From the NCBI RefSeq assembly GCF_024609325.1, contig NZ_JANHMQ010000001.1:992001-1056000 (forward strand): a DNA stretch of 64,000 bases, written 5' to 3'. The notes beneath the pieces are model-generated. The model ran no database searches. It had not been told where the DNA came from and saw only the letters and a program-made list of their open reading frames with translations. The position numbers and the translations under genes were made by a program. This stretch comes from Geothrix fuzhouensis. GTDB lineage: Bacteria; Acidobacteriota; Holophagae; Holophagales; Holophagaceae. This document shows, one piece after another, positions 51,272 through 64,000 of the stretch (positions are counted from its first letter, which is position 1; every line of letters starts with the position of its first letter).

Positions 51272-51361
51272 GGAGAGATGGCCGAGTGGTTGATGGCACC
51301 GCACTCGAAATGCGGAGACGGGGAAACCTGTTCGGGGGTTCGAATCCCTCTCTCTCCGCCA
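51272..51361 (+). tRNA. tRNA-Ser (anticodon CGA)
   Basis: This 90-base gene has an acceptor stem GGAGAGA / TCTCTCC, an anticodon stem CCGCA / TGCGG with loop CTCGAAA giving anticodon CGA (51306-51308), a long variable arm typical of tRNA-Ser, and the T-loop GGTTCGAATCC. CCA is encoded at the 3' end. A strong hairpin terminator follows. The 3' end marks the left border of the integrated element. Confidence 0.97.
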
Positions 51362-51408: not shown

Positions 51409-51555
51409 TTACTCACCCATATTTCTACCCATATTTTTACTTGGCTTTCGAGTTTCTGTCACCGGGCTGACCTCGACCCACTCCGTTTCCGTCTTCTCGA
51501 CCAAGGGCGATGAGGTACGGTGCCCGCGAAGCAGATCGGGATTCAGGTCGGAGGG
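51409..51555 (-). pseudogene. Remnant of a coding sequence next to tRNA-Ser, perhaps an integrase end
   Basis: A minus-strand frame of 48 codons ends in TAA 48 bases from the tRNA. It has no start, and a TAG cuts it upstream. Most of its first 32 codons end in G or C, as real genes here do, and the end contains WVEVSPVTETRKPSKNMG. The position, tail-on to a tRNA 3' end, is where tyrosine integrases usually sit, but no catalytic residues remain to prove it. Confidence 0.35.
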
Positions 51556-51730
51556 CTAACGCTGGGAGACCGCCTGAGAACTTCCGGGTGACGCCCTGAG
51601 GTCCAGCATCCCTGCAAGGTGGGACTGGAGGACCGTCGGTGCACTTGACTCGGTCTGAATGCAACGTGATACGAAACCCAGACGTATCATTGAGGAAGAC
51701 CATCCAGACTGGATTGCAACGGAGGCAGCA

Positions 51731-52108
51731 GTGCCACTTAACGAGAGACACCTTGAGGCCGTCATTGCTGCCACCTTGGCCGTCAATAAGTATGGACTGG
51801 AGAAGTCCTACAAATTGCTTCCGAGTCTCCGGAAAGCTGGCCTCACAGATCCTGTAACGGTGGCAAAGGCCGATGCGGGTGATGTGATGATGCGGCTGTG
51901 CAAGGCCGGGTACGACCGAGGCATGTTGACCGAGATGATGGCCGGTCGGTTAATTAACCTGATGCAGGCCGTTCATTCTGGAGCACTGGATGGCCTGAAT
52001 ACCCTTGTCGATAACCGCGCCAAGGGAGGGGCTATGGAGCTCCTTTGCGCTGTGAAAGGCATTGGTCCAAAGGTCGCGGCTGACGCATGGATGCTCCTCA
52101 CCACATAG
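51731..52108 (+). CDS. Small HhH-motif protein
   Basis: This protein of about 125 residues is largely helical and ends with a helix-hairpin-helix-like block (LLCAVKGIGPKVAADAWMLL), which usually contacts DNA non-specifically. The GTG at 51731 is preferred because GGAGG sits 6 bases upstream; an in-frame ATG at 51659 would add 24 residues but has no ribosome-binding site. It is the first intact gene of the element and points towards the ParB-recombinase operon. Function is unknown. Confidence 0.6.
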   Translation: MPLNERHLEAVIAATLAVNKYGLEKSYKLLPSLRKAGLTDPVTVAKADAGDVMMRLCKAGYDRGMLTEMMAGRLINLMQAVHSGALDGLNTLVDNRAKGGAMELLCAVKGIGPKVAADAWMLLTT

Positions 52109-52134: not shown

Positions 52135-53013
52135 CTACTCCAAGTTCGCGGCCTCGATGATCCGTTGGAATTCAAAAAGGAACTCTCGGAAGTTTTGGGA
52201 GAGAAAGCGCACAACCCGACCATTCTCTAGCAGAGGCCTGAGGTAGCCACGGGCGATCGTCAGGGCCATGATGTGCTCGTTGTAGGTTTCATCGAGCATA
52301 CGGAAATCCTTCTCCTGGATCCTCATCTCGTGCTCGATTCGAGCGAGGTCGTCTGGATGAATGCCTGGGATCTTCTTCGGGCTCTCAGGATCCACAAGCT
52401 GTTCCCTCGACGTGGTCATCACGAGGGCACGGGCATACGTCACCGAGTAGTTCCCAGCCGCGACCATGATCTCGGACATCTCGATCTGGCGAAGTGGTTT
52501 CACCTTTTTGAGGAGTGACAGGGTCTTGAGGGCAACCTGCTTGTCCTGGAGCAAGCCAACAGCCTCTGGGCAGATGGTAAAGAGCAGGCTTCGATTCATG
52601 CGTACCGTATCGACCGCTAGGTTGAGCGCCCGCGCAATTCGCTCTTCTGGAACCCCAGCGTCCATTGCCTTCAGGATCATGCGATTTGCCTGGATGGGCG
52701 CAATTCGGTTCACCCGCTTGTTGAAGGTGTAGCCCTCATTGGCGAGGGAAACGAGACAGGGGGCCTCGGAGATCCCAAGCTCTCGCAGTGCTTCGACACG
52801 AGCGTGCCCATCGAGTAGAAGGTATTTCCCACCCTTTTGTGGGAACACGCTCAAGGGCTCAATGATTCCCACCTCGCGGATGGAGGCGGTCAGGGCACGG
52901 AACTTGGATGACTCCTTCAAGTTCTCGCCGGTGGCTCGCGTCGGCAAGAGCCGGTCCAGCCGGATTGTGATCCCCTCCAACTCAAATGCTGGTTCAAGCC
53001 GTGGGGCGCTCAT
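52135..53013 (-). CDS. ParB/RepB-like protein, second of pair
   Basis: This 292-residue protein has a ParB N-terminal-like domain with LLLDGHARVEALRELGI (the position of the ParB CTP/DNA-binding block) and ISEAPCLVS. A helical middle resembles the HTH part (VPEERIARALNLAVDTVRMNRSLL). The C-terminal half fits the RepB plasmid-partition type. It is the last gene of a recombinase-ParB-ParB operon, and its start overlaps the preceding gene by four bases (ATGA). No ParA is next to it, so simple partition is unlikely. Confidence 0.78.
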   Translation of the reverse strand: MSAPRLEPAFELEGITIRLDRLLPTRATGENLKESSKFRALTASIREVGIIEPLSVFPQKGGKYLLLDGHARVEALRELGISEAPCLVSLANEGYTFNKRVNRIAPIQANRMILKAMDAGVPEERIARALNLAVDTVRMNRSLLFTICPEAVGLLQDKQVALKTLSLLKKVKPLRQIEMSEIMVAAGNYSVTYARALVMTTSREQLVDPESPKKIPGIHPDDLARIEHEMRIQEKDFRMLDETYNEHIMALTIARGYLRPLLENGRVVRFLSQNFREFLFEFQRIIEAANLE

Positions 53014-53864
53014 TTCTGAAGCATTTCATTTAAATACTTCGGCAGGGCATCGAGTTTCTCGGCCCGAAGAAGGGTCACGAAGTGATCGTTCTTCATCAAA
53101 TCCTTCAGAGCCGTCAAGACAAACCGTAGTTGCTGCTCGCAATGTCGGGATTTCTTCACCAGCAGTTCCTGCTTTTGAGTTTCCTTCCGCAGTGTGCGGA
53201 CCAAATCCTGTTGTGAAGGTGCCTTGGATCGTCGCGAGCTAGACCTTCCTAGGTCTTTGCCATGAGCCCGACGCTCTTCAATGAGCCTGCGCATCTTCAC
53301 TAGCGAGCGTCCACGAAGTTTCCCGCTGTCATAGGCATCCTGGAGGCTACGCTGCATGCCCGCATCATCAAAGGTGGCGATTTCAATGGCCGATGTGATG
53401 GGAATGTCGCCACGTTCGACCGCCGCGACCAGACGATCTTCTCCGTTCTCAATCAGGCGGATGAGTTGCACGACGTAGCTCTCGCTCACGCCCGTGATTG
53501 CGGCGATGGCAGACAGGCTGTGGCCGCGCTCCCTTAACCCAGCCAAGTCCCTTGCCAACTCCAGGCAGGATGGTGTGCGTCTGGTCAGGTTTTCGACCAG
53601 GCTACAGAGAAGGCGATCCTCCAGAGGTATGTCTACAACCACCGCCGGGATTTCTCGGGCTCCGTAGGCGATATAGGCTTCAAGCCTCCCCTGCCCACAG
53701 ACGAGATCGAATCCATCTTCTCCCTCGCGTCGACTGACGGTAATTGGCTTCTTAAGGCCGATCTTGGCGATGTTCTCCACGATCTCCCTGAACTTCCCTT
53801 TGCTGCGACCTCGTGCATTGATCACGCGAATCTTATCGATGGAAACAATCTGGACCGTGGTCAT
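53010..53864 (-). CDS. ParB-like protein, first of pair
   Basis: This 284-residue protein has a ParB N-terminal domain with FDLVCGQGRLEAYIAYGAREIPAVVV, then LVENLTRRTPSCLELARDL and an HTH (HSLSAIAAITGVSESYVVQLIRLI). The C-terminal part is basic and coiled-coil-like (RTLRKETQKQELLVKKSRHCEQQ). It overlaps the recombinase gene upstream and the second ParB-like gene downstream, by four bases each. Its neighbours suggest that it acts with the recombinase on the element's own DNA, not as a plasmid partition protein with ParA. Confidence 0.82.
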   Translation of the reverse strand: MTTVQIVSIDKIRVINARGRSKGKFREIVENIAKIGLKKPITVSRREGEDGFDLVCGQGRLEAYIAYGAREIPAVVVDIPLEDRLLCSLVENLTRRTPSCLELARDLAGLRERGHSLSAIAAITGVSESYVVQLIRLIENGEDRLVAAVERGDIPITSAIEIATFDDAGMQRSLQDAYDSGKLRGRSLVKMRRLIEERRAHGKDLGRSSSRRSKAPSQQDLVRTLRKETQKQELLVKKSRHCEQQLRFVLTALKDLMKNDHFVTLLRAEKLDALPKYLNEMLQK

Positions 53865-55393
53865 GCTGCCACCACAGCCCTAACCGTTTGAGCAATTCCG
53901 AAGAAATACTCAAGCGACTGATAGCGGTATCCATCCAGGAACATCCCGTTGTCCTCCTTGATGCGAAGACGGGCCTCCCTCACGTCCAGAGACGGGAGAA
54001 CGTAGTAATCGAGTGGGGCCATATTTGCTGCATCCATCCGGACGACGATGGTGAGATCTGGCACGAGCCCAGTGTCCAAGCGGACCATCCAGCGCATGGC
54101 ATCGGCTCTGGAGACCTGGCATCGAGAGATGACAATCGAGACCGAATGCATGCCGTTGATGAGAAGCAGGTCCGTCCTAGGATCCTGTGTGACGGTGCCT
54201 CCATGCTCCTCAAGAGCCCTTATTACCTCCGCCATGATCTCGGGGTGAAGTCGTCGTAACCTCCGATTGATTTCCACATAGGCGAAATCCCGATCAGGCA
54301 GGTAGTCGACCAGTTGATAGGCCCTTGCGAGGCTGCCGAAGCGATGCCGGTAAGCTGAACTCGATGGCATGCCCTCTGCCTCGTCAATGATCAGCCCGCT
54401 CAGGCGACCATTGCGTTGGGCAAGGCCTCGAAGCAGTTCCAGAAACTCCGTGTCCGAGACCCTCTTGTGGCGTTCCAGGATGATTTCCTGCGCTAGAGTG
54501 AAATCAATCATGTCCACCACGGCATCGAAGGCCTCGTTGCGCCGAACCCACATCTGGGGTGGATTTTTGACACGCTTCTTTTTCAATTTGAATGAAACCT
54601 TGTTATACACGTTGTTTCCAACGTATTTTTCGTTCGTGAGCACCTGGTGAATCATCCCTCGGGTCCAGTCCCGGCCTAGCTCTCCGAAGATTCCAGCCCG
54701 GTTGAGTTCTCCAGCGATCTGCCGTTCGGTGTATCCCTCCGAAACGAACAGACGATAGATCCTACGGACCACCGCCCGCTCGTCCGGTGGGCCAGGCACC
54801 AGCACCACGCGATCGGTCTGAAGGCTCTTCTGTTCACCAGGTTGTAGCTCTGTTTTTGGTTTTCCAGCCTGATCGATGAGCAGCCTCCGTAATCCGTATC
54901 CGGCTGCTCCCCCTTGCCGGAACCCTAGTTCAATCAAGCGGCATTGGCCCTTGAACACCTTTGTCGAAAGCTCTCGGCTGTATTCACCGGCCATGGCCCG
55001 CTTGACGCCCTTCACGATGGTGCTGACCGGGCTACCATCATTTTCAAATTGCTCTGCACAGTACTGAACGTTGATCCCGGCCCGTTTACAGATGTATTCG
55101 TAGTAGGCACTTTCGTCGGCGTCCTGGAATCGCCCCCAGCGGCTCACGTCGTACACAAGAATCGTGGTGAAATCCGCCCGACCGCATTGGACGGTCTCGA
55201 TGAGTTCTTTCAGACCATCCCGGCCATCAAGGCGAAGCCCACTTTTCCCTGCATCGCAGAATGTCCGGACGATCTGAATACCCCGTCTTGTGGCGTATTC
55301 CTTCAGGGCATCAGACTGATTTTCCGTCGAGTACTGCTGATGCTCTGTGGACATCCGCACGTATTGGGCTGCCTGGATCAGGTCGTCACTCAT
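53861..55393 (-). CDS. Large serine recombinase
   Basis: This 510-residue site-specific recombinase has an N-terminal resolvase catalytic domain with the nucleophile S15 in YVRMSTEHQQYSTENQ and the conserved DVSRWGR block near 80-87. A recombinase domain follows (about 180-270: GYGLRRLLID, DERAVVRRIYRLFVSEGYTERQIAGELN, MIHQVLTNEKYVGNNVYNK). No Cys-based zinc ribbon, as in phage integrases, is visible; the last 200 residues are of a different type. It is the first gene of the operon with the two ParB-like genes, all overlapping by four bases. Confidence 0.9.
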   Translation of the reverse strand: MSDDLIQAAQYVRMSTEHQQYSTENQSDALKEYATRRGIQIVRTFCDAGKSGLRLDGRDGLKELIETVQCGRADFTTILVYDVSRWGRFQDADESAYYEYICKRAGINVQYCAEQFENDGSPVSTIVKGVKRAMAGEYSRELSTKVFKGQCRLIELGFRQGGAAGYGLRRLLIDQAGKPKTELQPGEQKSLQTDRVVLVPGPPDERAVVRRIYRLFVSEGYTERQIAGELNRAGIFGELGRDWTRGMIHQVLTNEKYVGNNVYNKVSFKLKKKRVKNPPQMWVRRNEAFDAVVDMIDFTLAQEIILERHKRVSDTEFLELLRGLAQRNGRLSGLIIDEAEGMPSSSAYRHRFGSLARAYQLVDYLPDRDFAYVEINRRLRRLHPEIMAEVIRALEEHGGTVTQDPRTDLLLINGMHSVSIVISRCQVSRADAMRWMVRLDTGLVPDLTIVVRMDAANMAPLDYYVLPSLDVREARLRIKEDNGMFLDGYRYQSLEYFFGIAQTVRAVVAA

Positions 55394-55485
55394 GCTGCAC
55401 CCCGTCTGTCTAGGTGGTGGTGGGCTTCGGCAACCGTTCCTTGGCCCTGGCAGACGACCCTACCTGCCTCTCGGCTCGCCCACCA

Positions 55486-55556
55486 TGACCTAATAGGTCA
55501 AGTTTTCGGCGAAAGCATGACCAGTTAGGTCAAGTCCATGGGGGAATCTGACCTGG
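55486..55556. promoter_or_regulatory. Operator-like palindromes between recombinase and XRE genes
   Basis: TGACCTAATAGGTCA (55486-55500) is a perfect odd palindrome. A close copy, TGACCAGTTAGGTCA (55518-55532), starts exactly 32 bases further on, about three helical turns. A TGACCTGG half-site near 55549 continues the same spacing. The sites lie between two divergent genes and are natural targets for the XRE protein encoded at 55593. Confidence 0.65.
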
Positions 55557-55592
55557 CGTGTCGGCGTGCCCTCCTCGACAGAGGCTCCCCCT

Positions 55593-55940
55593 ATGAACTC
55601 CCTTCCCAAACGCCTTGGTCAAAGGATCGCCAGACAACGACGGGCTGCGGGGCTGACTCAGGCCGAATTGGCCGAAAAGGTCGGTGTCCAACCTGAAACC
55701 ATCAGTCGTCTCGAAACCGGGAAAAGAACTGTTTCCCTTAGAGTGGTGGCCACAATCTCTGAATCGCTCGGCCTTGAACTCCATGAACTCTTCCGACTAC
55801 AGCTTTCTGACAGCGCCAAGGACCAGGCCATGGGAAGGCTTACGTGGTTTGCTTCACGGCTCACGGCAGCCGAAATCGAGCTCATTCTTGATGTCGGATC
55901 CGCAGCGTTAATGCATGTCCGAAGGGCTCAAGGGAAATAG
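55593..55940 (+). CDS. XRE-family transcriptional regulator
   Basis: This 115-residue protein has an N-terminal Cro/C1-type HTH (about 3-60: RLGQRIARQRRAAGLTQAELAEKVGVQPETISRLETGKRTVSL). A short helical C-terminal part follows, with a possible oligomer interface. The ATG at 55593 is used; an in-frame GTG at 55566 is possible. It is divergent from the serine recombinase operon, with two palindromic sites between them, so it probably represses the recombinase-ParB operon and itself. Confidence 0.88.
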   Translation: MNSLPKRLGQRIARQRRAAGLTQAELAEKVGVQPETISRLETGKRTVSLRVVATISESLGLELHELFRLQLSDSAKDQAMGRLTWFASRLTAAEIELILDVGSAALMHVRRAQGK

Positions 55941-56161
55941 GAGGCAATTCCGTCCACTCCCCCTCATTTCCGTCATGGCGGCCATGAGCGACGCAGGGCG
56001 GAACCCGCAAAGCGCAGCGGCCCGCAAGACGGAGGGCTCCCCCTGGGAGACCATCTTGGGGGCTTGCGGGCTCCGACCGGAGGCGCAGCATCCTCGCCAG
56101 AACGGGAAGGAGGGGGCCACCTTCAGTAGCCAGAAGGCCCCCCCAGCGCTCCTGCCGAGGC

Positions 56162-63654: not shown

Positions 63655-64000
63655 TCTTCCACCTCCAGCCCGAGCGCCTGTGAGCCTTCGCTGGGCTTGG
63701 CTGTCTTCGGTGGCCTGCTTCGACGTTTAGTAACCCCTCCGGGCTCTGGCGTAGCCACGGGATCTAGGGGCGCGGCTCCAAGGTCAGAGGCGCTGGGAAG
63801 GTTCTGGATGTTCAAGCTGTAGTCGTCGTGCCCCCACTCGCATTTCGAAAGCACACTCTGGGGAATCTTCTTGAGGGTGAGATTCGGGTAGGACTCTGCA
63901 TCACCTCGGAATGCCCCACAACACACCAACAATGTCTGCTTCTCACCGACCTCTTCGGAGATCGCGCGAAGCTGAGTCTGGGTGAGGGACTGTGTTGTGA
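63651..64000 (-). CDS. Type III-like DNA methyltransferase (Mod), 3' end only
   Basis: Only the C-terminal 116 codons are in the window; the frame is open through the right edge. The end contains LTQTQLRAISEEVGEKQTLL, LTLKKIPQSVL and KCEWGHDDYSLNI, typical of the C-terminus of Mod-type adenine methyltransferases, followed by a Pro/Arg-rich tail. The catalytic motifs lie outside. Its stop overlaps the res start as ATGA, fixing the mod-res order. Confidence 0.78.
   Translation of the reverse strand, partial: TTQSLTQTQLRAISEEVGEKQTLLVCCGAFRGDAESYPNLTLKKIPQSVLSKCEWGHDDYSLNIQNLPSASDLGAAPLDPVATPEPGGVTKRRSRPPKTAKPSEGSQALGLEVEE

Follow-up and report, generated by a model that had tools for sequence, protein, structure and literature searches.

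Within a 64-kb stretch of the Geothrix fuzhouensis genome (contig NZ_JANHMQ010000001.1, positions 992,001 to 1,056,000; hereafter the window, with position 1 as its first letter) we analysed a gene trio that encodes a large serine recombinase (SR) and two ParB-like proteins (ParB1 and ParB2) and lies divergent from the gene of an XRE-family regulator. Sequence comparison indicates that the trio belongs to a compact mobile unit of about 4-5 kb (4.6 kb in the window) that is distinct from the larger island surrounding it and is apparently a serine-recombinase integrative element of an undescribed SR-ParB-ParB type. In the reading that we favour, with a probability of roughly 55%, the trio is the recombination module of this element, with SR as the catalyst, the two ParB proteins as its DNA-binding partners and the XRE protein as the repressor. 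We found no description of a recombinase-ParB-ParB element in the full text of the open-access literature, and the SR-ParB1-ParB2 trio had no match in complete E. coli genomes.

The unit in the window was bounded by two direct repeats. The right boundary repeat, a dyad-rich site of about 130 bp at 55964-56093 on the plus strand, matched a boundary-site model with an E-value of 9e-32, and a diverged copy in the same orientation at 51484-51611 (plus strand) matched at 1.7e-12 and was also recovered by a blind repeat scan. The model was trained on five outside copies only, all from trio-less genomes of the genus, and the window copies were excluded from it. These were its only two same-strand matches in the window, none was obtained in 20 shuffled windows, and a weak reverse-strand echo reflected the dyad. 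The window site is a strong dyad with paired stem changes between copies. The repeats matched no known RNA family in Rfam, the only credible hit near the element being a tRNA. Copies of the right repeat with 74-88% identity were present in four trio-less genomes of the genus, where they adjoined AbiEii, a RelE-like toxin (Gp49) and other genes. The outside copies were noncoding and low in copy number (L210:740-899, L211:4615-4729, L212:4616-4751, L213:2343-2507 and L214:4248-4348). Both here and in the Pseudomonas element described below, SR was the only recombinase between the repeats.

Between these repeats SR (510 aa; 53861-55393), ParB1 (284 aa; 53010-53864) and ParB2 (292 aa; 52135-53013) are encoded on the minus strand, and, as a preliminary description made from the DNA alone had noted, SR overlaps ParB1 and ParB1 overlaps ParB2 by 4 nt each (ATGA). 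SR matched the Pfam Resolvase and Recombinase domains, ParB1 matched ParB_N and RepB (PF07506) and carries a helix-turn-helix (HTH) and a RepB-type C-terminus, and ParB2 matched RepB (PF07506) with ParB_N below threshold. The XRE gene, also noted earlier as divergent from the operon, was confirmed on the plus strand at 55593-55940 when read from an ATG, or from an in-frame GTG at 55566, giving a protein of 115-124 aa with an HTH_3 match (E 8e-15). A repeat scan placed two palindromic operator-like sites, TGACCTAATAGGTCA (55486-55500) and TGACCAGTTAGGTCA (55518-55532), between XRE and SR, and these are good candidates for XRE operators. The element also encodes, between the left repeat and ParB2, a 149-aa protein (51659-52108, plus strand) whose helix-hairpin-helix match is weak (Pfam HHH at E 0.008, under the cutoff) and which may be cargo or an accessory factor. 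A relative of the window trio, in genome G008, has an HTH_17-like protein in its place.

An occupied and an empty state of such an element could be compared in Pseudomonas (here and below, organism names of relatives are those of the database records). The 6.5-Mb genome of Pseudomonas sp. GL-B-19 (L031) contained exactly two copies of an 85-bp dyad site, and these flanked a zinc finger-SR-ParB1-ParB2 cluster, the element lying at L031:9081-13881. Three other genomes (G233, G129 and G302) carried the same island, with a DUF932-like gene and an inovirus-type gene as shared neighbours (named from reading of the open reading frames), and there the site was present once and the trio was absent, giving a clean empty site. 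The comparison isolates a 4.6-kb element with SR as its sole recombinase and no replication gene. The empty site and defined ends that characterise a site-specific integrative element were therefore found in one lineage, with support from junctions in others. No trio-less relative showing an empty site was found for the P. aeruginosa plasmid p12939-PER.

In Agrobacterium a 3.9-kb trio block was found in two contexts with an 18-bp core, CTTGANNGGRRTYGAACC, at both ends; of the four junctions, one carried a single mismatch. Comparison of pAtC58 with pAt1D1460 showed that the block shifts as a unit between different neighbours, and in the stretches examined no recombinase, tyrosine or other, was annotated near the trio save an IS3 transposase. 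Each plasmid contained between 1 and 13 copies of the core, which nearly always shared one orientation within a replicon half; a reversed control pattern gave 0-1 matches. The core also ended the AbiEii gene region in trio-less Agrobacterium plasmids and bounded a VapBC cassette found twice in pAtCFBP5877, with 99.5% identity between the two places, and once in pAtCFBP5507, the identity beginning and ending at the cores (L132:9472-10361; L154; L156). The core resembles a tRNA T-arm; we considered the T-arm as a universal site for the trio and rejected it, as it was found in Agrobacterium and was absent from most loci. Sphingobium was likewise rejected as a clean insertion, since the flanks came from two plasmid types and only the left junction was informative; the site occurred once in 22 plasmids and twice in the two that carry ars plus the trio.

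A blind scan for flanking repeats in 72 loci gave scores far above controls for L003, L031, the window, L084 and L021 and weaker scores for L029 and L048, and the repeat flanking L032 was explained by coding similarity. In the controls the opposite strand gave one such repeat, a contig-end artefact, and the same level was reached in 2 of about 4,970 cross-locus pairs. Element ends were sharp and clade-specific, and the right ends were conserved noncoding sequence. In Burkholderiales-type elements an extra gene of about 454 aa was observed, followed by repeated ATTTCGCT units at the element end, about +1475 after ParB2 (L017, L020, L028, L029, L033, L036, L039, L052 and L079); these units are a possible ParB binding array.

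The preliminary description had proposed searching for the same gene order across genomes and had named a lack of conservation as evidence against a joint role of the three genes. A scan of GTDB contigs yielded more than 580 SR relatives, and among the best 80, which were used to check gene order, ParB1 directly followed SR in every one and ParB2 came next wherever the contig continued. The trio spans six or more phyla, including Acidobacteriota, Myxococcota, Planctomycetota, Verrucomicrobiota, Nitrospirota and Pseudomonadota. A proteobacterial-type trio was also seen on a 13.5-kb linear 'plasmid' of Lactiplantibacillus plantarum (L085, NZ_CP110863.1), a contig that probably stems from contamination rather than from a Lactobacillus plasmid. 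Spacing was measured in 82 loci: SR and ParB1 were separated by -4 or -1 nt in 41 and by no more than 41 nt in all others but one, and ParB1 and ParB2 by -4 nt in 56, a recurrence that argues against the 4-nt overlaps being due to chance. Mantel tests on protein distance matrices (500 permutations) gave r of 0.93, 0.95 and 0.96 among SR, ParB1 and ParB2, against a permutation maximum of 0.20. By these measures the three proteins co-evolve, and the unbroken gene order together with the matched matrices identifies the ParB pair as an obligate partner of this SR lineage; the lack of conservation that would have counted against a joint role was not observed.

The gene on the 5' side of SR nearly always encodes a DNA-binding companion of the trio, being a same-direction zinc-finger gene in 46 loci, a divergent HTH gene in 20, a divergent XRE gene in nine (about six distinct elements) and another gene in five. 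Three companion classes occur at this position, and the XRE gene of the window is therefore one solution among three; the pairing with XRE is confined to the lineage of the window, and other lineages use an HTH or zinc-finger gene. The zinc-finger companion (for example L029:9329-9823) is small, has the conserved pattern CxxCGxPFxPxPQxPxQxFC..CQRxRxRxW and adjoins an SR family without a zinc ribbon of its own.

Profile matching of SR identified a Resolvase catalytic domain with its catalytic serine and a Recombinase domain, both above the Pfam cut-off. The catalytic motifs YVRMST and YDVSRWGRFQDADES were nearly invariant among relatives, as were S15 and the arginine motifs, and residues 2-311 of the SR model aligned with the YokA, Bxb1 and phiC31 integrases at Z 11-16. 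The lack of zinc-ribbon cysteines noted in the preliminary description was borne out, with the pattern in none of 72 complete relatives nor in the window SR and no zn_ribbon Pfam match. The C-terminal part is otherwise an unclassified domain with a sub-threshold HNH_repeat match; by sequence this half matched nothing in the PDB, and residues 374-506 of the model gave a borderline fold match to the PD-(D/E)XK homing endonuclease I-Ssp6803I (2ost; Z 8.2, 122 residues). By its sequence SR belongs to the large serine recombinases; its catalytic residues are intact and a zinc ribbon is missing.

The identification of both partners as ParB-type proteins also stood, profile and fold matches placing them with the DNA-clamp type related to Noc and Spo0J. 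ParB1 matched Spo0J, Noc and KorB by profile and by fold, and it combines the ParB N-domain, C-box, ENxxR box and HTH of the ParB/Noc family, retaining the CGxGR and ENxxRR motifs with G57, G59, R60, E91, N92, R95 and R96 invariant. ParB2 shows these features in part: its profile matches were to Noc and Spo0J, its N-domain is divergent with LDGHxR replacing GERR, the ENxxR box is absent, and D68, G69 and R72 are invariant. ParB1 thus appears to keep motifs of the CTP-pocket type, and ParB2 the fold signature with altered motifs. In a sister SR lineage (44-46% identity) on Mesorhizobium plasmids we observed a single ParB-like gene (L216:6521-7348, L217:5530-6327 and L219:5512-6360) that lacks the ParB N-domain and looks as though the C-terminal parts of the two ParB proteins had been fused.

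The mechanism that we infer has SR acting at the boundary sites, the ParB proteins participating and XRE regulating. The element would consist of a companion DNA-binding gene followed by SR, ParB1 and ParB2 between two copies of a dyad-containing site, and SR would cut and rejoin DNA at these sites, inserting or excising a circle of 4-5 kb. ParB1 and ParB2, translated with SR, may bind near the sites, where their clamp and HTH domains would aid site selection, synapsis and the bias in direction, and XRE, acting at the two palindromes, would repress the operon that diverges from it. Selection, synapsis and direction are handled in other large serine recombinases by a zinc-ribbon/coiled-coil domain plus a directionality factor, and the most economical reading is that SR, which has no such control domain, relies on its two ParB-type partners. 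Near-identical end sites would leave SR alone without the attP/attB asymmetry from which phage integrases derive their direction, so that direction might plausibly be supplied by a protein. phiC31 gp3, considered as a precedent for a ParB-type directionality factor, was rejected as its Pfam family is PF18897 and not ParB.

The trio might instead mobilise, in trans and with the ParB pair as site selector, toxin-antitoxin or defence cassettes that carry only a boundary site, the ParB proteins and the homing-endonuclease-like C-terminus replacing the zinc ribbon. Hypothetical candidates for such cassettes are VapBC and AbiE in Agrobacterium and the AbiEii and RelE-like genes in the genus of the window, and we consider this extension unlikely. 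Of two rival explanations, the one that we regard as less improbable, though doubtful, is that SR integrates and excises alone and the ParB proteins serve maintenance or regulation, by partitioning the excised form with a host ParA, as a repressor clamp like KorB or in a role like nucleoid occlusion, with shared timing, and not a shared complex, as the reason for their translational coupling. The nearest solved ParB relatives, Spo0J/ParB, Noc and KorB, do have roles in segregation, occlusion and repression, the Mesorhizobium SR (46%) does with a single ParB-like gene without the N-domain, and the neighbouring AAA_25, SSB and ArdC genes suggest that the island passes through a stage that is extrachromosomal or involves transfer. 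However, the trio comes without an accompanying ParA: none was found among the genes annotated between 51 and 64 kb or elsewhere in the island, as the preliminary description had noted for the operon itself, nor in the annotated trio neighbourhoods of pAtC58, pANY103d, pSF1 and the P. aeruginosa plasmid. In addition, the minimal Pseudomonas element consists of the zinc-finger gene, SR, ParB1 and ParB2 with no gene for replication, and strict 1:1:1 co-inheritance over several phyla exceeds what loose maintenance cargo would need.

Several observations weigh against the trio as the recombination module of its own element, and some of them fit a trio that is a mere passenger, moved, together with the islands and plasmids that carry it, by tyrosine integrases or by homologous recombination between dispersed repeats, with boundary repeats that are regulatory dyads or terminators flanking it by chance. 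The window and G008 copies both lie in tRNA-bounded islands whose far end carries a tyrosine integrase. In G008 the SR shares 90% identity with that of the window, and there the window-type site is absent and no other clear repeat flanks the trio. The Sphingobium junction stems from plasmid-plasmid recombination. In the window the site is placed between convergent genes and forms a strong hairpin, so that it could in part be a terminator. The blind scan returned strong flanking direct repeats for no more than about 8 of the 72 loci, and coding similarity probably accounts for two or three of these; the site sequence varies between lineages although SR remains about 60-66% identical. Both ends bear similar full-length sites in Pseudomonas and the window, unlike the hybrid attL and attR of phages, and homologous recombination between the repeats is an alternative to SR action. 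Against a passenger role, the catalytic residues of SR are nearly invariant, the Pseudomonas empty site isolates only the 4.6-kb unit in an island that stays put, and in pAtC58 and pAt1D1460 the block shifts as a whole between different neighbours, where no tyrosine recombinase is annotated in its vicinity. On this evidence we judge the passenger explanation improbable, and the favoured reading remains that of a recombination module.

The surrounding island of 35.8 kb runs from 51348 to the end of the window at 64000 and on to G000:C1:1079161, and the locus is empty in G002. It is integrated at a tRNA-Ser(CGA) gene (51272-51361, plus strand; ARAGORN) and bounded by a 14-bp direct repeat, CTCTCTCTCCGCCA, at the tRNA 3' end (51348-51361) and at G000:C1:1079148-1079161; its far end encodes a P4-type tyrosine integrase, and arm-like repeats occur at each of its two ends. 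With its own tyrosine integrase the island does not need SR for integration, and the trio was rejected as integrase of the whole island on account of that integrase, the 14-bp repeat and the arm-like repeats. The earlier claim that the trio belongs to a mobile element therefore holds, with the element being the nested 4.6-kb unit and not the large tRNA-Ser island. Cargo of the island includes a type III restriction-modification pair, McrBC, a TIR protein, a large AAA_13 protein, RadC and a type IV secretion system coupling protein, and it is possibly a mobilisable defence island. The trio was sporadic in the genus of the window and in the family, being present in 5 of 77 genomes of the family with SR at 75-100% identity and one copy a broken remnant. 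In G008 it lies at a different place, near tRNA-Ala rather than tRNA-Ser, and similarity to the window is confined to XRE-SR-ParB1-ParB2.

Among known systems the cassette chromosomes are the nearest in their way of working. SCCmec (staphylococcal cassette chromosome mec) and ECC, with CcrA/CcrB, likewise have a large serine recombinase in a variable element with flanking direct-repeat sites, although they use one fixed target, the 3' end of rlmH, where the trio elements have lineage-specific sites. SCC employs two recombinases, CcrA and CcrB, and the trio a single one whose C-terminal half is not of the zinc-ribbon type. Ccr systems are not known to have ParB partners. The best NCBIfam match of SR was CcrB at 40.7 bits, far below the cut-off of 900, and the trio elements were inserted at loci other than rlmH, which sets them apart from SCC and ECC. 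ECC att sites are direct repeats of about 50 bp, and restriction-modification genes are common cargo (PMC6222049). Phage serine integrases (phiC31 Int-gp3, Bxb1 and SPbeta YokA-YotN) share the Resolvase plus Recombinase architecture, and SR differs from them in its missing zinc ribbon, its borderline homing-endonuclease-like C-terminus and its two ParB-like partners from the same operon. The CTP-clamps ParB, Noc and KorB and the RepB of repABC share the ParB_N-HTH core, with the ENxxRR and GxGR motifs in ParB1, whereas the trio is tied to a recombinase, has lost motifs in ParB2 and has a PF07506-type C-terminus; the annotated neighbourhoods held no ParA-type ATPase that would make it a parABS or repABC system. 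Integrons and tandem cassette arrays resemble it in having single toxin-antitoxin cassettes with a short shared site at several places per replicon, and they differ in that the candidate recombinase here is a serine and not a tyrosine enzyme and the Agrobacterium site is no attC hairpin.

SR operons with two ParB-type clamps occur in several hundred sequenced species, ranging from Acidobacteriota to Planctomycetota and Pseudomonadota, and database annotation of their proteins goes no further than 'recombinase' and 'plasmid partitioning protein'. Concrete sites for testing how they work are available from the elements of Pseudomonas, Agrobacterium and the window. If the ParB proteins do control the reaction, DNA-clamp biology would be joined to site-specific recombination. 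Serine recombinases would then have a new means of setting their direction and choosing their sites, and the element would be a candidate carrier of toxin-antitoxin and defence genes on islands and megaplasmids.

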